Shown here one piece after another: positions 20,077-55,675 of a stretch of 64,000 bases of DNA. Each line of letters begins with the position of its first letter. Position 1 is the stretch's first letter. Both the position numbers and the translations under genes were made by a program. Source of the stretch: Terriglobia bacterium (GTDB lineage Bacteria > Acidobacteriota > UBA6911); contig JAIQGI010000018.1 in the NCBI GenBank assembly GCA_020072565.1, forward strand, positions 124,001-188,000, given 5' to 3'. The notes beneath the pieces are model-generated. The model was not told where the DNA came from. It saw only the letters and a program-made list of their open reading frames with translations, and ran no database searches.

Positions 20077-20089
20077 GATCTGCGCCTCG

Positions 20090-21856
20090 CTAGCGCGTCC
20101 GTTTGGTCAGTTCCTCGACATTCCAGAGCAGATACGGCACCAGGATCGACGGCCGGATATTTCCCAGGTTGTTTCTCCAGCCGGTGAGAATATTCGGGGC
20201 TACGGTCGCGATGGCCGGCATCTCCCGCGCCCAGATCTCCTGCACTTGAAAGAATGCTTTTTTGCGCACCGCATCATCCAGGCTTTGCACCAGCCGGGTT
20301 GTGAGAGAATCGACCTCAGCTTCCCAGGGGGTATTGGGCTTGCTCTGCTCCGGGTACCAGAAGTGGTTGCCGCCACTGCTGTACCAGAGGTCGGTCTGAA
20401 GGTCAGGGACGACATCGGTCGGGGTGTTACTCAGGAGAATTGCCTCATAATCGAAGGAGCGGCTGAAGCGGGGCGCGAGCTCGTTCATGAGAAGGAGCTG
20501 GACATTCACCCGTATTCCGACTTGCGCGAGATATTGCCTGATGATCTCGGCCGTTTTTTCCCTGGTCGCATTCCCCCTGGTTGTAAGGAGGACAATTTCG
20601 AGAGGGCGGCGCAGAGTGCCATACTCCACGATGCCGTCTCCGTTGGTGTCCTTGAGGCTGATCTGTGCGAGCAGTGCCCGCGCCCGCTTTGGGTCGAAGG
20701 GTGTGGGCCGCAGGCTGGTGTTGTACCAGACCCTGTTACCGGAGCTGATCGGGCCATACTGCGGCACCGCCAGCCCGCCATATACGGATCGTGCCACCGC
20801 CTCGCGATCCAGCGCGCAGGAAACCGCCTGCCGGAACGCGGCCTGTTCGAAGACGCTTTGTTTTTCCGGATCGAGAAACGGAGTGCCGGATGGGCTCTTG
20901 CCCGGGTTCAAATTGAACCACATGAAATCCATGCCCAACCCGGCGCCGAGATCCTGTACGGTATATTCCTTCGTCCTGTCCGGGCGGCGCAGCCGGGCAA
21001 AGTGCTCGGAATTCATGGAGCCGAGAACGTCGATTTCGCCGGCCTCAAAACGAAGGGCTTCCGCATTGCGATCCGGAATAATCAGGAAGGTCAGGGTATC
21101 GAGATACGGCAGCGTCTGCCCGGCCTTGTCTTTCTTCCAGTAGAAGGGATTTCGCTCGAGCACGATCCGGACGCCGCGCTGATACTCCTTCAAGCGAAAG
21201 GGTCCCAGTCCCGCGACCTCTTGCGGCGAAGCGGTGGGGCCCCATGCGGAAGCAAGGGCTCCTTCCTGATAGGTTTTCACCAATCGATTCTTGGGCAGCA
21301 TGGGGATCGAATCGAGCGATCGGAGTCCGGTGCCCACCGCCCTCGGCCAGGACAAGAGTACCGTAAAGTCATCGACCTTGGCGATCGCCGGAAACTTGCC
21401 GTCAGCTTGAAATTGATCGGCTCGGGTCGACGGATTCCGCGAATCCTGGAGCGCATTCAGGGTAAAAACGACATCGTCGGCAGTGAAGGGCCTCCCATCC
21501 GAAAAGCGCAATCCGCGCCGGAGATGGATGGTGTAAGTGCGGCCATCCTTGGCTGCCTCCCAGCCCGTGGCCAGAGAGGGCTCGAGTTCATAAGTACGCC
21601 GGTTGATGTGAACCAGGTCGGCCGACAGCGGCTCAGCGACCATGACATTCGCCACTCTGCCGGCGAACATGAGATTGAAAGTCGCCGGATCCTCACTCAC
21701 CGACGCGATCAGGCTGCCGCCGCGTGTGCCACCCAGGTCCGAACGCACCAGATAGTCGATGGTTTCTTTTTGCTGCGCATGTGCCGGACAAAAGGTAAGC
21801 GCGCAAGGCACCATGCCGACGACAAGAGCTGCCACGAGCCTGCATTTAGCGAACAT
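20090..21856 (-). CDS. ABC transporter substrate-binding protein, family 5
   Basis: A 588-residue exported solute-binding protein. Residues 1-28 form a signal peptide ending PAHAQ. The family signature is in YELEPSLATGWEAAKDGRTYTIHLRRGLRFSDGRPFTADDVVFTLNAL, and the C-terminal lobe has RQAVSCALDREAVARSVYGG and NTPTDVVPDLQTDLWYSSGGNHF. Family 5 proteins bind oligopeptides, nickel chelates or sugars. The reading frame continues to 22054, but the ATG at 21856 starts the signal peptide. It heads the operon with the two permeases. Confidence 0.9.
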   Translation of the reverse strand: MFAKCRLVAALVVGMVPCALTFCPAHAQQKETIDYLVRSDLGGTRGGSLIASVSEDPATFNLMFAGRVANVMVAEPLSADLVHINRRTYELEPSLATGWEAAKDGRTYTIHLRRGLRFSDGRPFTADDVVFTLNALQDSRNPSTRADQFQADGKFPAIAKVDDFTVLLSWPRAVGTGLRSLDSIPMLPKNRLVKTYQEGALASAWGPTASPQEVAGLGPFRLKEYQRGVRIVLERNPFYWKKDKAGQTLPYLDTLTFLIIPDRNAEALRFEAGEIDVLGSMNSEHFARLRRPDRTKEYTVQDLGAGLGMDFMWFNLNPGKSPSGTPFLDPEKQSVFEQAAFRQAVSCALDREAVARSVYGGLAVPQYGPISSGNRVWYNTSLRPTPFDPKRARALLAQISLKDTNGDGIVEYGTLRRPLEIVLLTTRGNATREKTAEIIRQYLAQVGIRVNVQLLLMNELAPRFSRSFDYEAILLSNTPTDVVPDLQTDLWYSSGGNHFWYPEQSKPNTPWEAEVDSLTTRLVQSLDDAVRKKAFFQVQEIWAREMPAIATVAPNILTGWRNNLGNIRPSILVPYLLWNVEELTKRTR

Positions 21857-22228
21857 GGGCGCAGTTTCGGGGAATTCGGTTCCGGTGTCAAGAACTAGCT
21901 GGATTCTGAAACGCCGCGGAGATGAAATCAGCGACTGCACGGAGCAAAACCCCAACGCGGAGGACGCTGAACGCGCAGAGAAAAAAACGAAAGCCAAACA
22001 TATGCCGACCGTTGGGGCCAAAGCCGGAGCTTGAAGCCAGTCATAACGCCACATTTACTGCGCCCTGTGCTTTGGAGTTTTTCATGGATACGGATTTGAA
22101 GGCATGCGATTCTTGATCGGGATTGCCCGTTTTTGGCATAGAATCTTCGCACGCGACCAAGCTGCACGCTACAGCAGGCGCAAGGCTGCCGTCCACTGCG
22201 GAGCCTCCCCTCATGAAGCGAGGCATCG
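21857..22228. other. Divergent intergenic region (372 bp)
   Basis: This stretch separates the ABC operon (minus) from the large sigma-54 regulator (plus). It holds the repeat at 21953-21988. No sigma-54 -24/-12 element (GG-N10-GC) was found in front of the regulator gene. GAGG six bases before 22229 is the only clear translation signal. No small gene is convincing. Confidence 0.5.
21953..21988. repeat. Dispersed intergenic repeat, copy 2
   Basis: Begins CAACGCGGAGGACGCTGAAC and ends GCAGAGAAAAAAA. It is related to 4862-4895. The pair shares the start CAACGC, the centre and the GCAGAGAAAAA end. Confidence 0.4.
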
Positions 22229-25200
22229 ATGACATCACCGGGTCTGAAGGAAGGGACAACTGTCGGGGATCGGTATCACGTGGACCGGCTTCTGGGGCAA
22301 GGGGAACTAGGCCGCGCCTACCTGTGCCGGGACCTGATGGATGAATCCCTGGTTGTACTCAGGACGCTGACCGAGTGGGACTCAGCGGAGGGAGTCGGAA
22401 GCCTGCGGCAGGAGCTGTCCTTCCTCAGCCGCTTCAAGCATCCCCACCTGGCCCATCTGTTGGACTTCGGCGTGATCGATCATGCCGCAACTCCTTACGT
22501 GGTGCGTCAGTTTGTGGAAGGAGCGGATGCCTTTCACGGATCCGCCGGCTGGAGCATCGATCGGGTGCTGTCATGCCTGGCAAAGCTCTGTCGCGTGCTT
22601 CAGTTCCTGCATTCGCGGAACATCCTGCACCACCACTTGAAGCCATCCAACGTAATTCTCGTCGACGTGGATGGCCGCGAGGCGGAGCCGAAGATATTGG
22701 ATTTCGGACTGAACCGGCGGGCAAAAATGGGCAGGCGCAGTCCGGCAACGATCGCATATACAGCCCCCGAGATTCTCCTCGGGCATGCGCGCAATCCCAG
22801 ATCCGATCTTTATTCCCTCGGTATCCTTGCCTATCAACTGCTCGCGCGCCGCCTCCCGTTTGATGATGAGGATGAAGGCTATCTGATCCAAAAACACCTG
22901 CAGGGGAAGGTGGACACGCGCCCGATCGAACGCCTGAGGGGCGGCGCCGGTCTCGCCCAGGTGCTGCTGGGCTTGCTGGAGAAGGACCCGGATAAGCGGC
23001 CGTCTTCGGCTGAAGATGTGGTCAGGCTGCTGAGCGCGGCGAGCGGTCGGGATTATTCGGGGACGGTGTCGGGGTCGATGGAAGCCTACTTCTCTCCGGG
23101 ACGATTTGTCGGGCGGGAAAAGGAGATGGCATGTTTGCAGGAGCGGGCGATCCGGGTGCGGCAGGATGGCCGCGGCTGGACCATTTTTTTGACCGGTGAG
23201 GGCGGCTCGGGCAAGTCGCGATGCCTGGAAGAGCTCAGAACCTGGGCTTTGCTCGAGGGCTGGAGAGTGGTTGAGGCTGCCTGTCTTCCCTGCGAAGACC
23301 GGTCGTATGGTCCTTATCGGCGCATCTTGGCGCGCGCCGCGCAGTTGCGACCCGCGCAGGGAGATGCCACGCGTGAGCATGCGATCTTTCGATTTGAAGA
23401 TGCAGCCCGGGCAGCGGAATCGCCGCGCTTTGAGTTGTCGTCCGGGTCGGCCGCGGGCCCTTTCCGGGACCAGCTGACGCGCGAGGTGGTGAGACTCCTG
23501 GCCGACCGCCCCACGCTGTTTTTGTTGCATGATTTTCATTGGGCGGATGAGGCGACGGTCACCGTTCTGGACTATTTGACTTCGGATATTCTCGCGCACC
23601 CCATCTTTTTGTGTGTGAGCCTGCGGCCCGCGGAGGCGGAACAGGGCCCCCTGAGACGGTTGATGGAACTGTCGGCCCGGCAACTCAGGGCGGAAACCCT
23701 GGCTCTGGAAGCTCTTCCCCTGCAGGCGATCGAGGATCTGATTGCCGGAATCACAGGCGAAACCTCGCTTGCCGGCGAGATCGGAACCTGGGTGCACAAG
23801 TCCAGCGGCGGAAACCCGTTTTTTGTGGAGGAGATTCTCAAGCACCTCGTCGACCGGGAGCTGCTGTGGCGTGAGTCGGGCCATTGGCGTCTTGCCTCCG
23901 AGGGTTTTGAAGATCTGGAGGTGCCGGCGAGTGTTGCCGTAGTGCTCAGGCGCCGGCTGGCCCAGTTGTCGCCCGGTGCGTTTGCCGTGACGGAATGGCT
24001 CGCCTTGGCCAGGCGGGCGCTTCCCAAGGACCAACTGCGGGCGCTGAGCTCGCTGGACTCGGATGAGCTCGAGACAAGGCTCAGGGAACTCATCTCCAGA
24101 CAAATCATTGGTGAAGTGAGCGGAAGAGGATGCTTCGAATTCCGGCATGCGCTGATCTCCGAGGTGATCACGGAGGATCTGCCTGCAGGGAAACGCCGCC
24201 GAATGCATCAGAGGATCGGAGAAATCCTCGAGGAGCACCACGGTACTCAGGAAAACCTGCAGGAATTGGCAATGCATTTCACGGAGGGGAGGTGCGGGGA
24301 GAAAGCAATCAGCTACGCCTTGAGGGCAGCCAGGGCATGCAAAGCCGAGTTTGCGAACGAGTCGGCATTGCGCTTCTACGAATATCTCCTGAACCATAAG
24401 AAGCTCTTGTCCATGGAACAGCAGTGCGACGTTTCGATCGAGGCTGCCGACAGCTGCTGCGCCCTCGGCAACCCAAAACGAGCTATCAGAATTCTAGGGG
24501 CTCAGTTGCACGATTTAGGGAAGGGCAAGAGGGCGCTTGCGATTCGTCTCTATACTCAGCTTTCACGGTCATTCCAATATCTTGGAGATATGGAAAAGTC
24601 CGAACAATCAGCAAAGCATGGAATGACACTTCTAGGGCGCCCAATTCTGGATCTGAATAAAAGCGAAGCGGAAATTCCGTTGCTTTCACAACTTGCTTTT
24701 TGCAGGTTGGCACATTCACAGCCCAGAAAAGGTCTGACCATGATCAGGAGCGCTTCGCGCTTCCCCTCAAAACCTCAGCAGACTATTATCGCCGGACATC
24801 TCCACATTCTGATATCTGCATTATGTAGCGTCGCATGCGATTTTGTTGAAGGAGCAAAAGCCGCCAAGACGGCAATCGAGATTCTTGAGCCACTGGGTGC
24901 CGATCACTTGCTTCCCATGGCTTATTCACATCTGGGTAACAGTTTGATAGGTATGGGCAAGCTGGGGAAAGCCCTGCACGAGTTCCAACGGGCGGTATCG
25001 ACGGGGAAGCGAACACGATCTCCTTTTTTGCTTGCCCAAGCTCTGTGCAATTTGACCGAGTGCTTCTGTAGGTCGGGCCAATTTGCCGCAGCGACCGAGA
25101 ATTCAACTAAAGCACTGAAGGCTGCATCGGAAACCGAAAACCGCCACATCTTATCAGCTGGCCTTTTGTGTGTGCTCGGGACTCAAATTGCGACAACTGA

Positions 25201-27652
25201 ATGGTCGCTCGCCTGTAACACGAAGAGGCTTCTAGCATCTCAAGACCTTGCATCGTTGCCAGTATATGCAAGGGCCCAGGCACTGTTTTTCTCAGCTTCA
25301 CTACACACGGAACTTGGTAGTTTTGAGGACGCGCTCTCAGACTTGGATTCTTTGCAGCGATTGGTCTCTTCTGAAACCCCGATATATGAAGCCAGCTTGG
25401 GCGAAATCCTAAGAGCCAAAATCTATTGCCAGCAGGGTCACATTGAGCAGGCGAAGGATTTGTTGCTAGAACTGGAAATCACGGTAACTCAAAAGCGGTG
25501 GGCTTATCAAATGACCCTCGCTAAGCTGCAGCTGGCCCAAGCGTTTCTCATGGCCGAAGATTGGCAAGAGGCATTCGCGCGAGCTCGCGGTTCACTTCGA
25601 CTCGCACGAGCAATGCCAGCCTTGCACCTTCAAGCTCAAGCCCACTATCTTTTGGCTAATATCTCACTCTTACGGGCGGAAAAGTCAGCATCTGCCGAAG
25701 GTGGTCCTAGGCTAATACAACCCTTGAACAATCAGGATTCATTGAAAACTGCTTATGCGGAATTTGAAAAAGCTCTGGCACTATCAGACAACCCGTTCAT
25801 GATCGAGACCGCGCGGCGTACGCACTACGCGATGATGCGCATTTGTAGGCTAGGCTATGAACCTGATGGTGCACTCAGACATGCCCAAAAGACATTGGAG
25901 TTACTCTCAGTAATTGAAGGAAGAGTACCAATTGACAAGTTAGATGCTTTTAAAAAGATGGAGGAACGCGAGCGCAGTAAGAACGAGTGTGAATGCCACA
26001 TACGCAAGTCTCTTGCGGACGGGGGAAAGATAACTCCGTCGATTGGTGACTTGGAAGAAGCACAGCTTCGCATACTATTCCGAATGAGTAGCACGATTAA
26101 CGCGATTCGAGATTTGGATGATCTAATGGAGGAAGTGCTCGGATTGCTGGCCACGGCTATGTGTATGGAACGCGCTCTGATTGCCCTGAAAGACAGGGAG
26201 ACTGGTCAAATCCGAATGGCGCGGAAGAGAAATCTAGGTTTTGCGTCGCTGGAGACAATGGATGTAATGAGCCGGAAGGTCATTCAGGAAGTTATTCGGT
26301 CGGGTAAACCATTTGTGACGGCAAATGCACGTTCGGACCCTCGTCTAACATGCCAAATCCGTGACGAATCCGCTGTGGGATCGTTTTTTTGCGCTCCCTT
26401 GGTGGCATGCGGACGTACTCTTGGGCTTCTTTACGCCGATCACCGATTTGCTATGGAAAGGCTTAACGAATCGACCATCAACTTGTTTGCCGCATTCTGC
26501 AATATTACTGTTGTCGCCATTGATAATGCCCTTGCTCATCGCCACTTGATGCAGGAAAAGAAGGAACTTGAACAATACCTCCGCCAGGCCAGGGGCGAGT
26601 ACCCCGAATTGATTGGAAAGAGCCCTGCGGTGCAAGAACTCCGGGAACGGATTGGACTTGCAGCTGCTTCACCTCTGGATGTTTTGACTTGGGGTGAGAG
26701 CGGGACCGGGAAGGAACTCGTCGCGCGGGCCCTTCATCGCACCGGACGCCGCGCCGGTGGCAAATTTGTCCCTCTTGACTGCGGTTCGCTGTCCGATACC
26801 CTCGTCGAGGGTGAACTCTTTGGCTATCGCAAGGGGGCATTCACCGGCGCCGTCGAAAACCGACCCGGCCTGTTCGAAGCCGCCGAAGGTGGAGTCATCT
26901 TCCTTGATGAGATCTCCAACTTGTCCTTACGACTGCAGAGGAAACTTCTGCGCGTGCTGCAGGAGCGCGAAGTAAGACGGATCGGAGAAACCGCTGCCCG
27001 CAAATTCAACGTTCAGGTTATCGTAGCCACAAACAGAGACCTGCGGCAGGAGATGCGCGAGGGGAGGTTCAGAGAAGATCTCTATTTCCGCCTGAATGCC
27101 ATGGAGATCAGAGTGGCGCCTTTACGCGAGCGCACCGAGGACGTGCCGCTTTTGCTCGAGTGGTTTCTGGACAAAGTCGGCAAAAATGAAGGTGGCAGGG
27201 TCAAGACTTTTTCCCGGGAGGCGCATGCGCTCCTCGTGCACTACTCCTATCCCGGTAATGTGCGGGAACTGAAAAACATAGTCGAGGGATCGTACTACTC
27301 CACCCCAGGTGACATTATCGGGGTCGGCCATCTGCCCACCGAAGTCCGGGACGGTGAAGCAGGAGCAGCTCCATGGGAACCTGCCCCCGCGGCATGGCAG
27401 GTTTACAAGCGGATCCGTGACGGCTTGGGGATCTTTGACGACTTGGTGAAAACTCCATTTCTCAAACGCCAGATCGGGTCCTCACAGGTCCGCCAAATGA
27501 TTCATTTGGCCCTCGCCGAAACCGGCGGCAGATACCGGGATGCATTCCGGCTCCTCGGCATTCCTGCCCGCGAATATGCCACCATGATCCAATTTCTAAA
27601 GCGGAACGATTGCTACCTGGACTTCCGGCCTTATCGCAAGCCACCCCGTTAG
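22229..27652 (+). CDS. Pseudokinase-AAA-TPR-GAF-sigma-54 activator fusion protein
   Basis: A 1807-residue multidomain regulator. Residues about 14-270 have a Ser/Thr kinase fold (LLGQGELGRAY, DFGLN at 158-160, APE as YTAPEILLG). The catalytic positions are altered: Arg45 (VVLRTL) at the ATP-anchoring Lys, and His134-His135-His136 in place of His-Arg-Asp. Residues about 291-470 are an AAA_16-type ATPase (FVGREKEM, Walker A GEGGSGKS). About 680-1280 is helical TPR-like repeats. About 1284-1450 is a GAF domain. About 1457-1690 is the sigma-54 interaction ATPase with GESGTGKE, GAFTGA (near 1535) and GGVIFLDEI. The end has a Fis-like helix-turn-helix (ALAETGGRYRDAFRLLGI). It should activate sigma-54 promoters; targets are unknown. 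Confidence 0.9.
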   Translation: MTSPGLKEGTTVGDRYHVDRLLGQGELGRAYLCRDLMDESLVVLRTLTEWDSAEGVGSLRQELSFLSRFKHPHLAHLLDFGVIDHAATPYVVRQFVEGADAFHGSAGWSIDRVLSCLAKLCRVLQFLHSRNILHHHLKPSNVILVDVDGREAEPKILDFGLNRRAKMGRRSPATIAYTAPEILLGHARNPRSDLYSLGILAYQLLARRLPFDDEDEGYLIQKHLQGKVDTRPIERLRGGAGLAQVLLGLLEKDPDKRPSSAEDVVRLLSAASGRDYSGTVSGSMEAYFSPGRFVGREKEMACLQERAIRVRQDGRGWTIFLTGEGGSGKSRCLEELRTWALLEGWRVVEAACLPCEDRSYGPYRRILARAAQLRPAQGDATREHAIFRFEDAARAAESPRFELSSGSAAGPFRDQLTREVVRLLADRPTLFLLHDFHWADEATVTVLDYLTSDILAHPIFLCVSLRPAEAEQGPLRRLMELSARQLRAETLALEALPLQAIEDLIAGITGETSLAGEIGTWVHKSSGGNPFFVEEILKHLVDRELLWRESGHWRLASEGFEDLEVPASVAVVLRRRLAQLSPGAFAVTEWLALARRALPKDQLRALSSLDSDELETRLRELISRQIIGEVSGRGCFEFRHALISEVITEDLPAGKRRRMHQRIGEILEEHHGTQENLQELAMHFTEGRCGEKAISYALRAARACKAEFANESALRFYEYLLNHKKLLSMEQQCDVSIEAADSCCALGNPKRAIRILGAQLHDLGKGKRALAIRLYTQLSRSFQYLGDMEKSEQSAKHGMTLLGRPILDLNKSEAEIPLLSQLAFCRLAHSQPRKGLTMIRSASRFPSKPQQTIIAGHLHILISALCSVACDFVEGAKAAKTAIEILEPLGADHLLPMAYSHLGNSLIGMGKLGKALHEFQRAVSTGKRTRSPFLLAQALCNLTECFCRSGQFAAATENSTKALKAASETENRHILSAGLLCVLGTQIATTEWSLACNTKRLLASQDLASLPVYARAQALFFSASLHTELGSFEDALSDLDSLQRLVSSETPIYEASLGEILRAKIYCQQGHIEQAKDLLLELEITVTQKRWAYQMTLAKLQLAQAFLMAEDWQEAFARARGSLRLARAMPALHLQAQAHYLLANISLLRAEKSASAEGGPRLIQPLNNQDSLKTAYAEFEKALALSDNPFMIETARRTHYAMMRICRLGYEPDGALRHAQKTLELLSVIEGRVPIDKLDAFKKMEERERSKNECECHIRKSLADGGKITPSIGDLEEAQLRILFRMSSTINAIRDLDDLMEEVLGLLATAMCMERALIALKDRETGQIRMARKRNLGFASLETMDVMSRKVIQEVIRSGKPFVTANARSDPRLTCQIRDESAVGSFFCAPLVACGRTLGLLYADHRFAMERLNESTINLFAAFCNITVVAIDNALAHRHLMQEKKELEQYLRQARGEYPELIGKSPAVQELRERIGLAAASPLDVLTWGESGTGKELVARALHRTGRRAGGKFVPLDCGSLSDTLVEGELFGYRKGAFTGAVENRPGLFEAAEGGVIFLDEISNLSLRLQRKLLRVLQEREVRRIGETAARKFNVQVIVATNRDLRQEMREGRFREDLYFRLNAMEIRVAPLRERTEDVPLLLEWFLDKVGKNEGGRVKTFSREAHALLVHYSYPGNVRELKNIVEGSYYSTPGDIIGVGHLPTEVRDGEAGAAPWEPAPAAWQVYKRIRDGLGIFDDLVKTPFLKRQIGSSQVRQMIHLALAETGGRYRDAFRLLGIPAREYATMIQFLKRNDCYLDFRPYRKPPR

Positions 27653-27697: not shown

Positions 27698-30115
27698 TCA
27701 AATTCGAGGAGGAAATTCGAGCACGTTGCCTTCCGACCCAGACGCTTGAGGGTTGGCAAGCTTTGCATGTTCGGTGAGCGCTTTCTGAGCGGCCTGGAGC
27801 AAAACCAGCAAGGTAGGCCCGTCATTTGGATAGGATGCGACACCTGTCTGGCACGCAACAAACCAGGTATTTCCGGGTGCCAGATTCACTGGTGTGCTCT
27901 TGATCAGCTGCTGCAGCCGGTGGACATAGCGAAGCGCCTGCGGGCTGCCCACCCCCGGGAGCAGTGCGACGAATCCATCGTGTCCGAAGCGGACCAGGAT
28001 ATCTGTCTGGCGCAGCTCGGACCGCAGGACGTCTGCCACCTTGCGTAGAATCAGATCACCCGTGCCTGCTCCATAGAGCGCGACGCTGTGCGCGAAGTTC
28101 TTGATTTCAAGAGTAACAAGGGATAGCGGAGTCTCCGTCTTCGCAGCATGTGCAAGCATCTGCGCGCCTGCAACTGAAAGGTAGGCGACACGATAGGTTC
28201 CTGTGACGGGGTCCAGGAGGCCTTCATCCCCAGACTTGCCGATGGCGCCGGCTTCGCGCACGAGCGGGGCGACCTGCTCCGCGACGGTTTGGAGGAGAGA
28301 GAGGTGAGTCGGGGAATAGAAGGTATGTTCGCGGGCATAAAGAGAGATTGTGCCGAGGCATTCTCCATCCTGAACCAGCGGAACGGCAAGGGCATCTTTC
28401 AACGCGGTGAAATCTCCTGCGAATCCCTGGAATTCCAGGGCGGCACCGGTGTTGAGCATAGGCCGTTTGTAGGCAGCCACCCAACCGCTGATTCCTTTGC
28501 CGAGCCCTATACTGAGGCCCTGCAAAGACTCTGCGAGGTCGCCACAGGCATATGCCGCTTTGAGGGAACCGTCATCCTGATTCAAATAAAAAGCACAGGT
28601 GTGATAAGGCACAATCCGCTCCAGACGGCGGGCCAGAATCGGCAAGGCGTCGGCAAGTCCAAGAGATCGCCCCATGCCCCCGCAGAACTCGAAAACGCGG
28701 ACGAGTTCTTCCGATGCGGTTGTCGGCGGCGATTGATCTGCAGGTAATGCCTCAGCTTGGGCGATGGCGCTGTCTACATTCTCGAAATACTTTCGGAACG
28801 AAAGTTCTGAAAGGTTTCGTGTTGCCTCGTCTGCTGAAGCCTCCAGTTCGTTGATGTGGCTGATAAAGAGCTCAACGAGCCTGGGATCATAGCTGCTCCC
28901 CGCCTGTGCCCGCAGCAGCTCAACCGAATCGTCGATGCCGAACGCCGATTTGTACGGCCGCGTGGACCTGATTGCATCGAAAGCGTCGGCAATTGACAAA
29001 ATCCTGGCCCCAATGGGAATTTCCTCACCTCTTAATCCGTCGGGATACCCAGACCCATCCCATCGTTCATGGTGGCAGCGGACGAATCTGGCAACGGGAA
29101 ATGGGAATTGGACTTGTTGAAGGATTTCGTCGCCGGCAGTGGCATGCAATTTCATTTTCTCAAACTCCTGTTTACTCAGCCTGCCGGGTTTGTTAAGTAT
29201 GTAGTCTTCAATGGCCAACTTGCCGATGTCGTGAAGCAGGGATCCAGTTTCGATTGCCTTGAGTTCATTTGCGTCAGTTATATGGCTGAGTTTGGCCAAT
29301 CCCAAAGCATAGGCCCTGACACGGCGAATGTGCCCATAGGTTGTTTGATCTTTTGCATCAACTGCCAACGCCAACGTCTCCACAGTTCTCAAATACAGGC
29401 CTTCCTGCTCATTCAAATGCTTCTCTGCTTCCATAGCCTTTGCCTGGTTAATCTTGTTCCATCCCCATACAACACCCACGAGCGGAGCCGCAGCGAAAGG
29501 AACATAATCATTCGCAGACTTCAGAGCAACTATAATGGCTGCCGAGACTGCGGATACAGAGAAGTCAATGTAGAGAGGAAGATAATTCTTGGACCAAAAC
29601 CGTAGTATGCCATCCCCCGTTGTCCAAGCGATAACTGTGGAAGTGATAAGAGAATTGTATAAGAAAAATGTAATTGTCAGTACGGCAGCTGGCAGGACCA
29701 TTAATCCAAGGTCACTGCTAAGATCAGGATTTAGAAAACGATATAGGCTGCTGTATAACCAAGCACCACAGATCATGCTGGAGGTATTGAAAACAATTTT
29801 GTAAGGAAGAACTCTACGTCGACATAATAGAGCGATGAGAGTGTGACAGAAGGTAGCAACTATGCATGGCGTTGGCCCATATAGCATCGCGACAGACATA
29901 ATGTACGCATCGCTAATTCCAATCATTGTGTTTACAGAAGGCAAGGCAAGAAAGAAGGGCACAGAGCCAACTGCCAAGAGAACAAGGATTATCCAAGTTA
30001 TCTGTGGAGGGTTATATAGTAAATCCCAAATCGCCCACGAGAAGATAGGGAATGCAGCTCCTGTCACCAGGATTATTAGGGTTTTTACTTTGAGTGGAAG
30101 CTGCATCCATGTCAT
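27698..30115 (-). CDS. Membrane HD-GYP phosphodiesterase with GAF and degenerate GGDEF domains
   Basis: An 805-residue protein. The N-terminus has about six to seven membrane helices (residues 1-215). An HD-GYP domain follows at about 230-425, with GHIRRVRAYALGLA, HDIGK, CHHERWDGSGYPDGLRGEEIP and RILSIADAFDA. The metal and GYP residues are intact, so it probably hydrolyses cyclic-di-GMP or a related dinucleotide. A GAF domain lies at about 470-620. The C-terminal GGDEF-like domain (about 635-790) reads RFGHDGFVALL, so the GG(D/E)EF loop is GHDGF and diguanylate cyclase activity is unlikely. The 5' part encoding the membrane region is AT-rich relative to the neighbourhood. It converges on the sigma-54 regulator gene. 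Confidence 0.9.
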   Translation of the reverse strand: MTWMQLPLKVKTLIILVTGAAFPIFSWAIWDLLYNPPQITWIILVLLAVGSVPFFLALPSVNTMIGISDAYIMSVAMLYGPTPCIVATFCHTLIALLCRRRVLPYKIVFNTSSMICGAWLYSSLYRFLNPDLSSDLGLMVLPAAVLTITFFLYNSLITSTVIAWTTGDGILRFWSKNYLPLYIDFSVSAVSAAIIVALKSANDYVPFAAAPLVGVVWGWNKINQAKAMEAEKHLNEQEGLYLRTVETLALAVDAKDQTTYGHIRRVRAYALGLAKLSHITDANELKAIETGSLLHDIGKLAIEDYILNKPGRLSKQEFEKMKLHATAGDEILQQVQFPFPVARFVRCHHERWDGSGYPDGLRGEEIPIGARILSIADAFDAIRSTRPYKSAFGIDDSVELLRAQAGSSYDPRLVELFISHINELEASADEATRNLSELSFRKYFENVDSAIAQAEALPADQSPPTTASEELVRVFEFCGGMGRSLGLADALPILARRLERIVPYHTCAFYLNQDDGSLKAAYACGDLAESLQGLSIGLGKGISGWVAAYKRPMLNTGAALEFQGFAGDFTALKDALAVPLVQDGECLGTISLYAREHTFYSPTHLSLLQTVAEQVAPLVREAGAIGKSGDEGLLDPVTGTYRVAYLSVAGAQMLAHAAKTETPLSLVTLEIKNFAHSVALYGAGTGDLILRKVADVLRSELRQTDILVRFGHDGFVALLPGVGSPQALRYVHRLQQLIKSTPVNLAPGNTWFVACQTGVASYPNDGPTLLVLLQAAQKALTEHAKLANPQASGSEGNVLEFPPRI

Positions 30116-30271
30116 GGCAGCCTACTCCGAACACAGTTTCTCACGTCCATTATCGTCAGCCGGTTCTCGGAGGATTAGTTCTCAGTCTCGCGGACAGGAT
30201 GAGGTCAAAAAATAGTAGAAAAACCATTGCTTTGAGGTAAGATCTTTTCCAAAACAAATTACTCTCAGCTT

Positions 30272-30320
30272 TAAACGCCGAAGGCTTGAGAATCTCGGTA
30301 GCTATTCTTGTCTCTCCTTT
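30272..30320 (-). repeat. Decayed fourth copy of the small-ORF unit (no ATG)
   Basis: After the last intact copy, the minus strand reads AAAAGGAGAGACAAGAATAG, then CTACCGAGATTCTCAAG. This resembles the ribosome site and the ACCGAA...ATTCTTGAG core of the intact copies, with a six-base deletion. The expected ATG is ATA, and no 19-codon frame with the right stop exists. I read it as a degenerate copy. The alignment is short and the call is tentative. Confidence 0.35.
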
Positions 30321-30344
30321 TCTGTGATTAAAGAAGCGCTTGAG

Positions 30345-30404
30345 CTAAATCCACAGAACGCTCGGCGTTTCACGGGTCTCAAGAATTTCGATTTCGGTTT
30401 GCAT
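30345..30404 (-). CDS. 19-residue peptide, array copy A
   Basis: The ORF encodes MQTEIEILETRETPSVLWI and ends in TAG. GAGGAG lies eight bases upstream of the ATG (minus strand AGAGGAGAATCGAAA). The peptide is acidic in its first two thirds (five Glu) and ends in a hydrophobic Val-Leu-Trp-Ile. It is identical in sequence to copies B and C. Compared with B, the two codon differences (CTG/TTG Leu, ATT/ATC Ile) are silent. It has no Cys, no double-Gly and no obvious signal peptide. I do not recognise the family. Context suggests a precursor or signalling peptide handled by the PqqD-M50-HlyD protein encoded upstream. Confidence 0.7.
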   Translation of the reverse strand: MQTEIEILETRETPSVLWI

Positions 30405-30449
30405 TTTCGATTCTCCTCTTGTGCTAGCGTGCTCGAATTGTCGACTTCA

Positions 30450-30509
30450 CTAGATCCACAAAACGCTCGGCGTTTCACGGGTCTCAAGAATTTCGATTTC
30501 GGTTTGCAT
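30450..30509 (-). CDS. 19-residue peptide, array copy B
   Basis: The product is MQTEIEILETRETPSVLWI, identical to copies A and C. GGGAGAGACGCGA lies in front of the ATG and supplies a ribosome site. It is separated from copy A by 45 bases and from copy C by 40 bases; these spacers are much less conserved than the coding parts, although both retain ...AGTGA and TCGAG fragments. Against copy C, eight codons differ (Gln, Leu, Glu, Thr, Pro, Ser, Val, Ile) and all eight changes are synonymous. This is direct evidence that the peptide, not the DNA, is under selection. Confidence 0.72.
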   Translation of the reverse strand: MQTEIEILETRETPSVLWI

Positions 30510-30546
30510 TCGCGTCTCTCCCGTTATGCTCGAATTAGGGATCTCA

Positions 30547-30606
30547 CTAAATCCACAAGACACTTGGTGTTTCACGGGTTTCGAGAATTTCGATTTCGGT
30601 CTGCAT
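30547..30606 (-). CDS. 19-residue peptide, array copy C
   Basis: The product is again MQTEIEILETRETPSVLWI. AAGGAGATGCAG directly precedes the ATG, the best ribosome site of the three. It is the most diverged copy at DNA level and differs from A at eight of nineteen codons without one amino-acid change. It is the first of the three in transcription order and follows the 10-codon ORF at 30659-30691. Confidence 0.72.
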   Translation of the reverse strand: MQTEIEILETRETPSVLWI

Positions 30607-30658
30607 CTGCATCTCCTTAAGAGAATGTGCTGTTAGTCAAGGTGTGCGAGTCGAGCGA

Positions 30659-30691
30659 TTACAGCCAAAGAATAGCGCCTGGCTTATTCAT
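30659..30691 (-). CDS. 10-residue peptide with matching Leu-Trp C-terminus
   Basis: ATG AAT AAG ... TGG CTG TAA encodes MNKPGAILWL. AGAAAGGA lies about seven bases upstream of the ATG. The last residues, Ile-Leu-Trp-Leu, parallel Val-Leu-Trp-Ile of the three 19-mers, and a Pro lies just before in both. An ORF this short could arise by chance; the ribosome site, position directly upstream of the array, same strand, and shared C-terminus raise its credibility. Confidence 0.45.
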   Translation of the reverse strand: MNKPGAILWL

Positions 30692-31314
30692 GATTGGTTC
30701 CTTTCTGACAAATGGTCCAAGTAGAAACGAACTGCCGTTTGTTACGACGTACTAATGCCGATTATGCAAATCACGGGATGGCTGGGCTGTGCCCAAAGAA
30801 GCACCGATTTGGCGGCGGTACAAGTCCCCAAGAAGCCCAGCCGGCAGCAGCGAATCCTCCTGTACCGTAAAAGGGCGCCGTGTACAAGCATCCTGCTTGC
30901 GATACTCGCCCTTGGCCGCACGCTCCAGCCACCCTGAAAGCATGCGGCTATGCTGGCGCTCCAAACCTTCCGCTCAAATCAGCTTAGCTCTTCCGCTGGG
31001 GGGTGATCAGGTCCGTTCGGTTCCCGACCAAGTGACCTGACCCACCTCATGGTGGGAGAGCCATTCGAGAAACTGACTGCCGAACAAAGGCGCAAACTAT
31101 TGATACGCCTAATCTTACTGATCAATGGATACTTCTAAAACAACACCTGAAGACATCGGACGAAGCGACCCAACAGCCGCAACTCCGTCCCAACAACTTT
31201 TATAGGTAATCATTTATACGAAGATTGAATAATTATGTCAACAAAAATCTGCGAAGATCATGAGAAATCGGAATTTCTGGACACGGCGAGGAAATCTTCC
31301 CTTCCAGTCACGCC
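30692..31314. other. 623-bp region without a confident gene, leader of the small-ORF array
   Basis: This region lies between the array and the M50 fusion gene. It holds a strong minus-strand promoter at 31213-31241. Plus-strand 31049-31138 is an open 29-codon frame (starts MVGEPFEKLT) without a ribosome site; I cannot support it as a gene. The part around 30870-30960 (CCGTGTACAAGCATCCTGCTTGC) looks like degenerate repeat material. If transcribed from 31206, it would be a 5' leader of about 515 nucleotides. Confidence 0.5.
31213..31241 (-). promoter_or_regulatory. Near-consensus sigma-70 promoter facing the small-ORF array
   Basis: On the minus strand TTGACA (31241-31236) and TATAAA (31218-31213) are separated by exactly 17 AT-rich bases. 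This is the best housekeeping promoter I found in the window. It lies 74 bases past the stop of the M50 fusion gene and points towards the 10-mer and 19-mer ORFs, with an expected start near 31206. Confidence 0.72.
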
Positions 31315-33741
31315 TCATGGCAGATATTCCCAAAACTCGGTCCGCAACCACCTGATGGCCCGGCGGGTGACGAGTTCCCCGATCATGCGCTTGCCGCAGA
31401 GAATCTTGCCTACGCCGGTCATGCCTGCCTTCAACGAGCCGTCAGCATTCAGCAACTCCCCCCGAACCACGACCTTGCGTTCTTGAGCACCTTCGACGGC
31501 GATTGGAGAGATGCTCTTCACCTGAGCATTAAGCGGTCGTTTCGAAAAAGCGCTCACCTTGACCACGATGGGGTAACCTACGGCGACATCGGCGATCTCC
31601 TTTTCAGGAACCGGCATATCGAGGATCACAAGCCTGACATCCACAACCTGGCAGAAGAGATTCCCCTTTTCGATATATGCGCCGAGCTTGTTCTTCAGAT
31701 ACGGAGTCGATACCACACCGTCGATGGAGCTTCGGATCTTCAGATGTTCGAGCTGCTGTTCCAGGATGCTCAGTTTTTCCTCGAGTCTGGCCACATCAGC
31801 CTCGACCGCCTGGATCGACTCTTTTCGCGAGCCGGCCAGAAGGATCTTGAGTTCACTATTCGCTTCTGCAAGCGCCTTCGTCCGGAGGAGCCTGTCTCTA
31901 TCTGTGCGCTCTTCGAGGACTTTGAGCTGGCCTTTCGCCTCGGCGAGTTCTTTTTGTGCCACCGCAAAAGCAGTCTGATTGCGCTCCAGTTCGTTTTTGG
32001 CAATCAGACCTCCCAAGAAGAGTGACTGGCTGCGCTCAAAAATGCTTTGCGCATTTTGCAGCTCCGCTTCCTTCTTGGCCACGGTGTCGAGCAGCAGTCT
32101 GCGCTCCTCGTCCACCCGCCCGGCATTCTCGAGATCGGTTCTTCGGGTCTCAACCGCCCGCTGTGCGCGTTCGATCTCCTCCGGACTTTTGCCGGCTTTG
32201 AGGAGATTCAGAGAAGCCCTGCTTGACGCAAGCTGTCCCCGGGTCTCCTCGTATGCGTTGCTCAACACCAGATTCTGGATCTCGGCGAGCACGTCTCCTT
32301 TTTTAACTTGACTCCCTTCATCGACATAAATCGACCTGAGCGTTCCCTCAACATCCGGGTTTATGCCCACGGTCTTGCCTGGCAGTATCACGAAATCTCC
32401 TGTGACTTTGAGCTCCCACGGGAAAAAGCCCGCAGCCAGGACGATGGCTGCGCCGATCAGCAGGTAGGGAGCCTTCCGAATCCTGGTGCCCACCCCGCCC
32501 GCCAGCTTGCCCGCGGCCGCGATATTTTCCCTGCTGGTTACCGGGACCACCATCAGACAAACCACTGAAAACAGGAGAATCCCCCATGTCTGATATTGAC
32601 CCACCATCCAGGCGCCCAGGCGTCCGAGTAAGATCAGAAGCAATCCCGCGGAAAAGGCAAAGGAGGAGACTCCGTAGAGAACGAAAATGCGCCGCTCCCG
32701 CGCGGTCAAAAAGGGGCTGCGTCTCCCCGTGCCGATCAACAGGTAGCTCAGCCTGCGTTTCAGGTAACCGAACGACTTCTGCCTCAGATTGGGCACTTCC
32801 AGATAGTCGCTCAGCAGGTAATAGCCGTCCAACCGCAAGAGAGGATTGAAATTAAACAGGGTCTGGATTCCGGAAAAGGCAATCGTGATCAGGCAGATGC
32901 GGCTTCCGAGTGTCTCAGGCGACAATAATCGCCACGCGATCGTGGCCCACGACCAGAGAACCAGCTGGATAAATCCGCCTGCGCATGACACCAGCATTCT
33001 TTCTCTCTTCTTGAGCAACCAGGCGTCACTTACATTGCAGTAGAAGCCGGGGATGAGGTAGAGAACCAGCAAGCCCATTTCTTCCACCTTTCCGCCGAAA
33101 TGCTTGAGCGTCAGGGCGTGCCCGAACTCGTGGATGGTCATCACGGTGAATGCGACCATCAGAATCAACGGAATGGAGTAGAGCGTGAATATCTGCGGCA
33201 GGGTGAAGACAAGCTGGTCCCAATTCACGAGGGAAAGGATTGCGCCCGCGGCGATCGACGCCCATCCCAGCACCTGGAACCCCGGACCGAAGAAGAAGCG
33301 GCCCAGCCTGGCCTCCATGCGCGTCAGCAACCGGTCTGGATTGGATGCGTGGATCTTGATCGACAGTACGCTGTCGAGCAGGCGGTGCCTGCGTTTTGAC
33401 AGCTTTTCGAGGCGGGACCACGAGGACGCATTGTCCAGCAACAGCAAATCCTGGAGCTTGTCAATGAAGTCCTCAACCTGACTCGTTTCCACTTTGACCT
33501 GGCACTGCTCGGATGCTGCTCCGGCCACCGCTCCCGCATTATGCAGGCCGTCGAGCCGGGCAAGCACGGTCGCTTGCACCCAGGTGAAACGGTAGAAGCG
33601 TCTCGAAAGCGGATCCTTCACTACGACAGGAGAGTGCGGATCGGAGGTCTCCGGTCGGATCTCGAGATCGGAACGCAGCTTTGCGCGGGTGTCGGCCAAA
33701 TCAAACCTCAGCGGATCAATACAGGCGACCACGGCGATCAT
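31315..33741 (-). CDS. PqqD-like / M50 site-2 protease / HlyD adaptor fusion protein
   Basis: An 808-residue protein. Residues about 20-105 have a PqqD-like pattern (VVVKDPLSRRFYRFTWVQATVLARLDG ... VEDFIDKLQDLLLLD), the fold that binds RiPP precursor leaders. Residues about 165-440 are a multi-helix M50 domain with HEFGH near 203-207, and LLRLDGYYLLSDYLEVPNL carrying the metal Asp. From about 453 a HlyD/membrane-fusion part has biotinyl-lipoyl halves (ILPGKTVGINPDVEGTLRSIYVDEG; IRSSIDGVVSTPYL) flanking a long coiled coil (about 495-630). It may cut and export a peptide. The ATG at 33741 lacks a good ribosome site; a TTG at 33699 with GAGG six bases upstream is an alternative. No ABC exporter or outer-membrane factor is adjacent. 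Confidence 0.85.
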   Translation of the reverse strand: MIAVVACIDPLRFDLADTRAKLRSDLEIRPETSDPHSPVVVKDPLSRRFYRFTWVQATVLARLDGLHNAGAVAGAASEQCQVKVETSQVEDFIDKLQDLLLLDNASSWSRLEKLSKRRHRLLDSVLSIKIHASNPDRLLTRMEARLGRFFFGPGFQVLGWASIAAGAILSLVNWDQLVFTLPQIFTLYSIPLILMVAFTVMTIHEFGHALTLKHFGGKVEEMGLLVLYLIPGFYCNVSDAWLLKKRERMLVSCAGGFIQLVLWSWATIAWRLLSPETLGSRICLITIAFSGIQTLFNFNPLLRLDGYYLLSDYLEVPNLRQKSFGYLKRRLSYLLIGTGRRSPFLTARERRIFVLYGVSSFAFSAGLLLILLGRLGAWMVGQYQTWGILLFSVVCLMVVPVTSRENIAAAGKLAGGVGTRIRKAPYLLIGAAIVLAAGFFPWELKVTGDFVILPGKTVGINPDVEGTLRSIYVDEGSQVKKGDVLAEIQNLVLSNAYEETRGQLASSRASLNLLKAGKSPEEIERAQRAVETRRTDLENAGRVDEERRLLLDTVAKKEAELQNAQSIFERSQSLFLGGLIAKNELERNQTAFAVAQKELAEAKGQLKVLEERTDRDRLLRTKALAEANSELKILLAGSRKESIQAVEADVARLEEKLSILEQQLEHLKIRSSIDGVVSTPYLKNKLGAYIEKGNLFCQVVDVRLVILDMPVPEKEIADVAVGYPIVVKVSAFSKRPLNAQVKSISPIAVEGAQERKVVVRGELLNADGSLKAGMTGVGKILCGKRMIGELVTRRAIRWLRTEFWEYLP

Positions 33742-34084: not shown

Positions 34085-34954
34085 ATGATCAGAAAAACTA
34101 TTTACGTCCTAGCACTCATACTCGTGGTTCTTGCGCTGGGGGCATGCGGGCAGAAGCAAGAGGCCCAGCCTCAGGCTCAGCAGGCAGCAGCAGTCCCAGA
34201 AAAACCGAAAGTTATTCCAGGCGAGATGGTGCTGATTCCGGCAGGAGAATACACGATAGGGACGAATGAAAAAGATCCCGGCGACCCTGCAAAGAAAGAT
34301 TTCACAAACGCCTATCCCGAACACAAGGTGAAGCTGCCTGCATTCTGGATCGACAAATACGAAACAACGGGCAAGGAGTACCTGGAATTTTCCATCAAGA
34401 CTTCTTACGTAGTCGAGGGCCAGGAAGAGGGTAAGACCTGGAGAACGTTTTTCTCTCTCGAAAAACCCAACGTTCCAGTCACGTACATCACCTGGAAGGA
34501 TGCCAACGAATACTGCAAAGCACAGGGCAAACGGCTGCCGACGGAAGAGGAATGGGAGGCAGCGGCACGTGGACCCAATGGATACCGCTACCCATGGGGC
34601 AACGAATGGGACGCCACCAAGGCTAACACCGCGGACGCAGGCTACCGCGTCCCGGTGGACATAGGTCAGTTCGACGATGTCAGCCCATTTGGCGTTCATG
34701 ACATGTACGGCAACGTCCAGGAATGGGCATCGGATTCGTACAAGCCCTACAAAGGAAATCCGAAGGCCGGCGGGCTGGAGTTCAATTCCGGCTACAAGGT
34801 TCTCCGGGGTTTGGGCTCCCGCTACACCGGTACCAAGTCGTCAGGTCTCTGGGCGCGAACGGCCTATCTGCCGAACTACCTCGCTGACTTTGGTTGCCGC
34901 TGCGCCAAGTCCGCCACTCCGGAAGAGGCGGCCAAGGCTGTGCCGGCCAAGTAG
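34085..34954 (+). CDS. Formylglycine-generating-enzyme-fold lipoprotein (SUMF1 family)
   Basis: A 289-residue lipoprotein: the signal peptide ends in a lipobox (LALGACG, Cys at residue 22), followed by a Gln/Ala linker. Residues about 45-275 match the FGE-sulfatase domain: GEMVLIPAGEYTIGTNE, PVTYITWKDANEYCKAQGKRLPTEEEWEAAARG, YPWGNEWD, GVHDMYGNVQEWASD and FGCRCAKS. The family includes sulfatase-activating enzymes and many non-catalytic or Fe-dependent oxygenase relatives. The paired active-site Cys of true FGE is not evident, so sulfatase activation is not claimed. It is under its own promoter and converges on the RlmI-like gene after 20 bases. Confidence 0.87.
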   Translation: MIRKTIYVLALILVVLALGACGQKQEAQPQAQQAAAVPEKPKVIPGEMVLIPAGEYTIGTNEKDPGDPAKKDFTNAYPEHKVKLPAFWIDKYETTGKEYLEFSIKTSYVVEGQEEGKTWRTFFSLEKPNVPVTYITWKDANEYCKAQGKRLPTEEEWEAAARGPNGYRYPWGNEWDATKANTADAGYRVPVDIGQFDDVSPFGVHDMYGNVQEWASDSYKPYKGNPKAGGLEFNSGYKVLRGLGSRYTGTKSSGLWARTAYLPNYLADFGCRCAKSATPEEAAKAVPAK

Positions 34955-34974: not shown

Positions 34975-36159
34975 TCAGAGCACTCTGAGGATGAAGCATT
35001 TCAGATAATGCGTTTCAGGCATTCCGAGAAGGATGGGGTGGTCTGTACCTTGCGCGCGCCGCTCCAACACTTGAACGCGACGGTGAGCATCCTGGGATGC
35101 CTGGTGCAGCAATTCCGAGAAATCTGCCTCGGATAGGTGGTAAGAACAGCTCGAGGTTACCAGAATCCCTTCCGGTGCGAGCAGCTTCATGGCACGAAGA
35201 TTGATTTCCTTGTAGCCCCCGCGGGCAGCGCGAAGAGCACTTCGGTTCTTGGCGAACGCAGGAGGATCGAGGCAGATGGTGTTGAATCTGTCGCCGGCCT
35301 TCTCCCGCTCCCGCAGGTAGTCGAAAACGTTGCCCTCCTGAAACTCGACGTTTTGCAGCCCATTGAGTTCGGCATTGCGTCGCGCCTGTGCCAGCGCCTC
35401 AGCCGAAGCATCCACGCCGACTACGGATGCGCAGCGCCGGGCGAAGTGGAGAGCAAAAGCTCCAGTGTTGGTGAAGCAGTCCAGACCGCGTCCCGATGCA
35501 TAGCCGCGCGCCGCGAGCCGGTTGTCCCCCTGATCCAGGAAGAATCCCGTCTTCTGGCCGTGAGCGAGGTCGACCCAGAAACGAACCCCTCCTTCGGAGA
35601 TCCGCACCTGCTCCGGCACCTCCCCCCACAGGACGCCGCGGCATTCCTCGAGCCCTTCGAGCCGGCGCGCCTTGACGTCATTCCGTTCCAGCACCCCGAC
35701 AGGATTCAGCGAGTCGCGCAGGATGTCCACCAACAGGCTCTTGAGGACTTCTGCGGTGCTGGACAGGGTCTGCAGCACCAGGTAGTCCCCGTAGCGGTCG
35801 ACCACTACCGACGGGAGGGAATCCGCCTCGCCGAATATCAGACGGCATGCCGCTTCCGGCTGCAGGCGCCCGTGGCGCCGTTCGATCGACTGGCGGACGC
35901 GATCGCGGATCAACGCCACTGTGGGCGGCTCAGTGTCCCGTGACAGAAGGCGCAACCGGATTTGAGAGTGCGGGCTGTAGAACGCAAACCCAAGAACGTT
36001 GTGCGCCGCGTCCCGTACCCTGACAATGGGCGCCGGCGACAGGGGCGCGGCGGCGACATGGCCCCTGTAGACCCACAGGTGTCCCCGGCGCAGACGCTGG
36101 GCGCCTTCAGCGGATACCTCTACTTCGCCGTGAGTTGCAAACAAATCTGCTTCCGTCAT
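34975..36159 (-). CDS. Class I rRNA methyltransferase, RlmI-like (PUA + SAM domain)
   Basis: A 394-residue protein with an N-terminal PUA-like RNA-binding part (about 10-80; RLRRGHLWVYRGHV) and a Rossmann methyltransferase. GLDCFTNTGAFALHFAR is the SAM loop, VVGVDASAEALAQARRNAELNGL the acidic strand, and LDPPAFAKNR the catalytic DPP motif; TSSCSYHL supplies the Cys seen in m5C enzymes. RlmI methylates cytosine 1962 of 23S rRNA; the exact position here is inferred. It begins two bases after the tRNA nucleotidyltransferase gene ends and is probably co-transcribed with it. Confidence 0.9.
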   Translation of the reverse strand: MTEADLFATHGEVEVSAEGAQRLRRGHLWVYRGHVAAAPLSPAPIVRVRDAAHNVLGFAFYSPHSQIRLRLLSRDTEPPTVALIRDRVRQSIERRHGRLQPEAACRLIFGEADSLPSVVVDRYGDYLVLQTLSSTAEVLKSLLVDILRDSLNPVGVLERNDVKARRLEGLEECRGVLWGEVPEQVRISEGGVRFWVDLAHGQKTGFFLDQGDNRLAARGYASGRGLDCFTNTGAFALHFARRCASVVGVDASAEALAQARRNAELNGLQNVEFQEGNVFDYLREREKAGDRFNTICLDPPAFAKNRSALRAARGGYKEINLRAMKLLAPEGILVTSSCSYHLSEADFSELLHQASQDAHRRVQVLERRAQGTDHPILLGMPETHYLKCFILRVL

Positions 36160-51606: not shown

Positions 51607-51728
51607 TCCGCACCGCGGGATTTTGCCGAAAAAATGCCCTACTCCGAACCTTCCTAAGCGTGGTTCAAACCCTTATACTGGTGGCGTTGGTTCAGACGAA
51701 TGAACGCCCTAAGATCAGGCGCGAAATA

Positions 51729-55650: not shown

Positions 55651-55675
55651 AGGCGACTGAAAGCTGGTAGACAAG

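Follow-up and report, generated by a model that had tools for sequence, protein, structure and literature searches.

A PqqD-like–M50–HlyD fusion gene beside very short peptide genes in Acidobacteria and other phyla

What could be the function of three identical 19-codon genes that lie beside a gene joining a PqqD-like domain, a site-2 protease and an HlyD adaptor? This arrangement was found in a stretch of 64,000 nucleotides from a Terriglobia bacterium (contig JAIQGI010000018.1, positions 124,001 to 188,000; hereafter the window), whose own positions are used as coordinates throughout. A first-pass annotation of the window had proposed a locus for peptide maturation and export, and our analyses supported this proposal and widened it beyond the window. 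We regard production and release of very short peptides as the likely function of the locus, with the RiPP (ribosomally synthesized and post-translationally modified peptide) recognition element, or RRE, of the fusion binding a leader, the protease cutting after a proline and the adaptor exporting the remainder. The association of RRE-M50-HlyD genes with genes for peptides of 8 to 23 residues is seen in a group of bacteria from soil and sediment and is found again in distant phyla, and it looks like a widespread, little-described route to very short peptides; the literature searched yielded no account of RRE proteases fused to HlyD or of the leader motif reported below.

The 19-mer array and its partner gene

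As the first-pass annotation had noticed, the array lies next to the fusion on the same strand. It comprises three genes on the minus strand (30345-30606), each of 19 codons plus a stop and all encoding MQTEIEILETRETPSVLWI (type A), and every copy is preceded by a Shine-Dalgarno (SD)-like GGAG or GGGAG. Nine of the 19 codons vary among the three copies and all changes are synonymous; given an expected nonsynonymous fraction of 0.74, the chance of nine silent changes is about 5e-6, a codon pattern which indicates that purifying selection acts on the peptide. Direct repeats of 97-105 nt do arise by slippage, and the array might be a chance tandem repeat that encodes no peptide, beside an ordinary efflux adaptor. 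This explanation is contradicted by the exclusively synonymous changes, by the retention of the peptide in 10 genomes of the family and by the motif statistics given below, and we regard it as barely credible. A second copy of the array was not found elsewhere in the 7.46-Mb genome. Downstream, at 30116-30347 on the minus strand, an SD-like AAGGAG followed by ACCGAGATTCTCAAGCC may be a decayed fourth copy, and a comparable decayed copy ending in VIAWK was seen in genome G266.

On the minus strand, the fusion gene is followed by a promoter-like site, a leader RNA, a micro-open reading frame (micro-ORF), the three 19-mer ORFs and an HD-GYP gene. The micro-ORF, the leader RNA and the conserved HD-GYP gene had escaped the first-pass annotation. 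The features are as follows, all on the minus strand.

31315-33741, minus strand: fusion gene of RRE, M50 site-2 protease and HlyD adaptor; probable start TTG at 33699
33400-33699, minus strand: N-terminal RRE (PqqD-like) domain, from profile, structure model and Foldseek
32542-33339, minus strand: membrane metalloprotease part with HEFGH and NPLxRLDGYY; limits approximate
31318-32424, minus strand: HlyD/EmrA/MacA-like adaptor part with coiled coil; limits approximate
31213-31241, minus strand: promoter-like TTGACA-N17-TATAAA ahead of the peptide transcript, recognised by eye and by an aligned TTGACA column in the family; absent from the promoter scan listing
30981-31076, minus strand: conserved leader RNA (TCTCGAATRGCTC... 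GAGnnAGAGC), candidate regulatory element by conservation
30659-30691, minus strand: leaderless micro-ORF MNKPGAILWL (type B), 11 codons including stop
30547-30606, minus strand: type A peptide gene, copy 1, MQTEIEILETRETPSVLWI
30450-30509, minus strand: type A peptide gene, copy 2, identical peptide
30345-30404, minus strand: type A peptide gene, copy 3, identical peptide
27698-30115, minus strand: membrane HD-GYP/GAF/GGDEF enzyme of cyclic di-GMP (c-di-GMP) turnover, conserved downstream neighbour

The pairing was analysed in the 15 genomes of the window's GTDB family and in a phylum set of 396 genomes. The family is called gp18 here, after one metagenome-assembled genome so labelled among the named matches called Acidobacteria. 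Fusion orthologues were present in 13 of the 15 family genomes, and the two genomes without one (76% and 84% complete) also had no 19-mer peptide. Directly downstream of the fusion, 19-mer homologues were encoded in 10 of the 13 fusion-bearing genomes; they include MQTEIEILESRETPGVLWTIGQP, MQTDIEILETRETPIVLWGWH, MQTEIEVLETRETPGILWGGKGR, MQTEIEILESREAPMIVWY and three copies ending in VIVWT. Contig ends shorten the downstream region in three of the peptide-bearing genomes (G180, G242 and G196); in G196 the array continues from one contig to another, and the latter carries a further copy and then the HD-GYP gene. In the three genomes without a homologue, the contig ends 178 bp (G322), 726 bp (G188) or 231 bp (G250) after the fusion gene. 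Arrays lacking a fusion were also looked for: the leader pattern, with at most one mismatch, occurred in 10 of the 396 phylum genomes, all of them fusion-bearing members of gp18.

Across gp18 the leader MQTEIEILE is nearly constant and the C-terminal ends vary. The locus thus shows two of the features by which RiPPs are recognised, namely a conserved leader and a variable core in a ribosomal precursor, with an RRE near it. The C-terminal ETPSVLWI, tried as a phylum-wide search pattern, had its exact match in the window alone, the leader being the conserved part. The 19-mer divides into a recognition part, MQTEIEILETRETP, and the C-terminal SVLWI, and would be a precursor that yields SVLWI as product. 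The N-terminal part, suggested earlier as an acidic leader, is more than acidic, being a version of the daptide-like motif E-x-L-E-x-x-x-x-P.

A three-part protein compared with known systems

The fusion ORF encodes 808 amino acids as first called, and the alignment to 12 relatives together with the TTG codon at 33699 suggests a real start near residue 15. Its N-terminal 100 residues were aligned with those of 22 relatives. Pfam PqqD matched 16 of these 23 domains, and the window's own domain gave no Pfam PqqD match at E 0.1. The top hits of a PDB profile search were TbiB1, TfuB1 and PqqD (E 0.012-0.04). An AlphaFold2 model of the domain reached a pLDDT of 92.4, and its top Foldseek matches were RREs, that is, leader-bound lasso-peptide B1 proteins and PqqD, with probability 1.00, no match reaching E 0.001. 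By profile, model and structural matches taken together, the domain is an RRE.

In the protease part, HExxH (H204, E205, H208) is invariant in all 13 aligned fusion sequences. The closest NCBIfam protease model was that of daptides (daptide_HExxH), with 195.5 bits, the cut-off of 300 not being reached. The HlyD domains scored well above the Pfam and NCBIfam cut-offs, and the C-terminal half matched EmrA (3.6e-20) and MacA in Foldseek, with the barrel-sandwich and alpha-hairpin fold of HlyD/MFP adaptors. Profiles, model, Foldseek and the invariant HExxH thus bore out the three-part composition that had been read from the sequence. The fold is that of the EmrA and MacA adaptors; here an RRE and a protease sit in front of it, and a single protein may read the leader, cut it off and act as adaptor in export. 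A family of genes, coding for an outer-membrane efflux (OEP) channel by its one scanned member, adjoins the fusion in 13 planctomycete-type loci, which fits export. Three further genes that recur beside the fusion, in loci of planctomycetes and of other groups, had no Pfam match (L150 4828-5538, L137 4582-5739 and L145 8502-9413).

The nearest known system is the daptide pathway. In two daptide papers (PMC10036551, PMC12338566), an RRE is fused N-terminally to an intramembrane site-2 protease (MpaP/DapP) that removes the leader, the precursors carry ELExMEAP and the products are cut after an ELExxxxx motif. Both systems have an RRE-site-2 protease fusion and multiple short ORFs, and ILETRETP of the window has the same L-E and Pro spacing as ELExMEAP. 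Because of this shared spacing, we infer that the RRE of the fusion binds the EIEILE strand, that the membrane-embedded HExxH protease cuts the 19-mer after the conserved Pro and that SVLWI is released, which the fused adaptor would hand to an outer-membrane channel. The differences are several: the protease here is additionally fused to HlyD; the motif has [RK] at the Met position and usually reads IAP or ETP; the invariant C-terminal Thr is lacking, the window peptide ending in Ile and ends varying elsewhere (the G266 copies happen to end in Thr); the peptides are as short as 19 residues, with leaderless 8-10-mers besides; and no MpaB/C/D/M-like genes lie near the fusion. Of the enzymes by which a daptide cluster would be recognised, neither the oxidoreductase nor the aminotransferase was among 13 scanned proteins encoded at 18-42 kb of the window, and the methyltransferase found nearby (34975-36159) looks like one acting on rRNA. 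Since the C-terminal Thr, the partner enzymes and the NCBIfam cut-off all fell short, the locus would work like the daptide leader-removal step but is not a daptide pathway.

The daptide signature (an RRE, an ELE-type leader and an RRE-site-2 protease fusion) also agrees with a different explanation: the short genes would encode precursors of a modified RiPP, of the daptide or another kind, with enzymes encoded elsewhere in the genome to tailor it, and leader removal and export would be the only tasks of the fusion. A divergent gene for an FGE/PvdO-like lipoprotein (34085-34954) could act on the exported peptide. Against this, the same 13 proteins (one of them without a match, overlapping ORFs being left out) included no aminotransferase, alcohol dehydrogenase, YcaO or radical SAM enzyme; among the recurrent neighbours of the 80 loci described below none is a tailoring enzyme as annotated, three clusters having no Pfam match; and the peptide cores contain no Cys. 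We judge this explanation unlikely and prefer release of very short peptides by the fusion itself, for which no modifying enzyme would be needed. The FGE/sulfatase-modifying-factor-like gene, on the plus strand, was found next to the fusion in 11 of 11 gp18 loci in genome_contigs, and none was seen beside gp5 fusions.

Two further systems are related more loosely. The membrane metalloprotease part is related to the epipeptide protease YydH/LiaK (NF058609; 55.4 bits on the fusion, cut-off 225), whose model length points to a protein without fused RRE and HlyD. Epipeptides require a radical SAM enzyme, and no radical SAM gene stands beside the fusion. Streptococcal short hydrophobic peptide (SHP) and XIP signalling with Eep involves very short hydrophobic, partly Trp-containing products, and a membrane protease is implicated. 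The earlier comparison with Eep and pheromone precursors is an analogy only, with no sequence relation shown; no Rgg regulator was seen here, none having been searched for, and an Opp importer is near in the window but not conserved.

A leader motif shared across phyla

The genome_contigs collection was scanned once for relatives of the fusion, and the best 80 of 347 were used; gp18 loci occur both as genomes (G numbers) and as contigs of this named set (L numbers), and the 80-locus counts take the named set only. Within 3 kb of each fusion, ORFs were sought that are short, have an SD and match E-x-L-E-x(2,4)-[ATNV]-P; this motif was drawn up with knowledge of the daptide paper and of the peptides in gp18 and gp5, and was then applied together with controls. 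The strict search yielded 63 ORFs in 38 of the 80 loci, as compared with 0-2 hits for seven control motifs (reversed, scrambled or L-substituted), so that the co-occurrence of fusion and short ORFs extends beyond the family. The spacing is fixed: of nine spacings, three residues gave 63 hits, seven gave 4 and the other seven spacings gave none. The sixth motif position was [RK] in all 63 ORFs, giving E-x-L-E-x-[RK]-x-[ATN]-P.

Common forms begin with M...IEELEERIAP or IEELEQRIAP and continue into Gly/Asn-rich tails, and a locus holds up to five copies. A bridge peptide in L098, MEENLVLEVEELEEKIAPNVIWVS, joins the common form to the peptide of the window. The loci belong to Acidobacteria, Rokubacteria, Verrucomicrobia, Planctomycetes, Zixibacteria, Gemmatimonadetes and others. 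Ten motif peptides were tested and none matched a Pfam or NCBIfam family (one Pfam hit had E 0.12, below the cut-off). Many phyla rich in uncultured members appear to share a leader motif outside these databases, and the motif beside an RRE-M50-HlyD gene offers a simple rule by which secreted peptides that gene callers miss because of their small size could be found.

Near-identical Gly/Asn-rich tails such as NNPPLNNTNNPGNEGTGGQVSTG follow the motif on the upstream side of the fusion in L093, L100, L107, L111, L121 and L151, which belong to different phyla, and their sequences suggest transfer or strong constraint. L112 and L113 carry three to four tandem copies of MAKKSTKKVVKLNVERLEKRIAPTRAAIAMG downstream on the opposite strand; these arrays are included among the 63 ORFs. 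A very loose form of the motif, run over 199 genomes, gave hits in 56 of them and control counts of similar size and was uninformative at genome level; inspection by eye placed nine of these hits no more than about 2 kb from a fusion (G003, three in G019, G046, G137, G148, G177 and G188).

Leaderless micro-ORFs and the c-di-GMP link

A second kind of peptide gene, type B, encodes 8-10 residues without a leader and has an SD. It was present in 10 of the 11 gp18 loci with enough sequence, the window included, as MASAILWL, MASGILWL, MNKPGAILWL, MQKFGAILWL, MRTLSAILWL or MFSAKAILWL; G037 had none. In the gp5 relatives (about 38% identity), L088 encodes MNETYGVIWV and L130 two copies of MKETYGVIWV, and longer ORFs of L087 and L089 have both the leader motif and a GVIW or SVIW stretch. 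A downstream scan returned 21 sense versus 1 antisense hits. Its search expression was written after the gp18 examples, and the independent hits are those of gp5 L088, L089 and L130; one of the 21, MTSACLLFWLPSKRIL in L085, is probably due to chance.

Three gp5 loci, L088, L089 and L130, each carry two tandem c-di-GMP-I riboswitches (Rfam) between the fusion and the peptide ORFs, on the same strand; L090 ends at the fusion gene. The conserved gp18 RNA occupies the place of these riboswitches but differs from the c-di-GMP-I type. Its folding-energy z-scores range from -0.95 to -4.0, its conserved stem shows no compensatory changes, and terminator scans around the leaders returned shuffle-level signal only. 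A model of the RNA (R1) found one copy per genome in 10 of the 15 family genomes (E at most 2e-7), each of them at this locus, nine of the ten being its training sequences. An HD-GYP homologue follows in 8 of the 80 loci (L077, L078, L084, L085, L086, L087, L089 and L098), all of which have peptides containing Trp; L100 has a fragmentary match besides, and the genome of the window has one full-length copy. The gp18/gp5 subtype is thus set apart by its ultrashort peptides with Trp, its 8-10-mers without a leader, the HD-GYP/GGDEF gene next door and, in three gp5 loci, the tandem riboswitches.

In gp18 and gp5, a riboswitch or riboswitch-like leader would control the peptide genes, with the membrane HD-GYP/GGDEF enzyme following, and such peptides would have become joined to c-di-GMP control. 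Because of this tie, the peptides are probably a cell-to-cell or envelope signal. A more elaborate circuit can be drawn for Acidobacteria, gated by c-di-GMP, in which riboswitch-controlled Trp-oligopeptide genes of 8-19 codons are served by one RRE-protease-adaptor that needs no further enzyme for cutting and export, and the peptide is sensed by the HD-GYP/GGDEF protein, which in turn resets c-di-GMP, the gp18 RNA being an unclassified riboswitch; as a whole this is a tentative and rather doubtful proposal. The Opp importer was tried as a conserved return path. Its genes are close by in the window (18-22 kb), and in the L098 genome they adjoin the HD-GYP gene. No match was found in G122 and G037, and in G266 the importer lies on another contig without these neighbours; it was dropped as a conserved part.

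The type B ORFs have 8-10 codons, stand after the leader RNA and before the HD-GYP gene and keep a hydrophobic-Trp end, as some arrest peptides do, so that the short ORFs could instead encode leader or arrest peptides of regulatory function, which act on the translation of the HD-GYP gene and are not secreted. The type A motif, however, is present in precursors of phyla without an HD-GYP neighbour, where most of the ORFs (42 of 63) lie on the upstream side of the fusion, and the tandem copies and the place of the motif beside an RRE-protease also speak against this view. Translational control is accordingly an improbable explanation in our judgement, and we retain leader binding, cleavage and export.

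Several results weigh against the latter reading. The fusion scored 23.9 bits with Pfam Peptidase_M50, below the cut-off of 27.2; the model of the whole fusion was moderate (pLDDT 75.6, pTM 0.45); and no TolC-like gene was recognised among the neighbour proteins scanned around the fusion of the window. Type B peptides carry no leader and are left unexplained by a simple cut after Pro, as is L087, where the GVIW stretch precedes the motif. No riboswitch was found in L087, and the gp18 leader RNA had no Rfam match in the window or the gp18 loci searched; it is a riboswitch-like candidate in which c-di-GMP binding is only putative. Finally, the first-pass annotation had named fusions without short ORFs as evidence against a link, and 42 of the 80 loci had no motif ORF by the strict search; that concern holds in part, several of these contigs ending at once and a looser, uncontrolled search having detected the motif at 12 of 34 strict-negative loci outside gp18 and gp5.

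The surroundings of the locus in the window contain further genes. A viral scan found nothing. Oligopeptide ABC importer (Opp) genes occupy 18068-22054 on the minus strand, and 34975-36159 encodes a methyltransferase with a PUA domain that resembles an rRNA methyltransferase. Five radical SAM genes, three of them with B12-binding domains, are clustered with one methyltransferase at 51660-59396 on the plus strand. Facing the HD-GYP gene, a protein kinase-AAA-sigma54 activator of 1807 residues is encoded at 22229-27652 on the plus strand, and its relatives adjoin the HD-GYP gene in gp18, gp5 and L098 loci.

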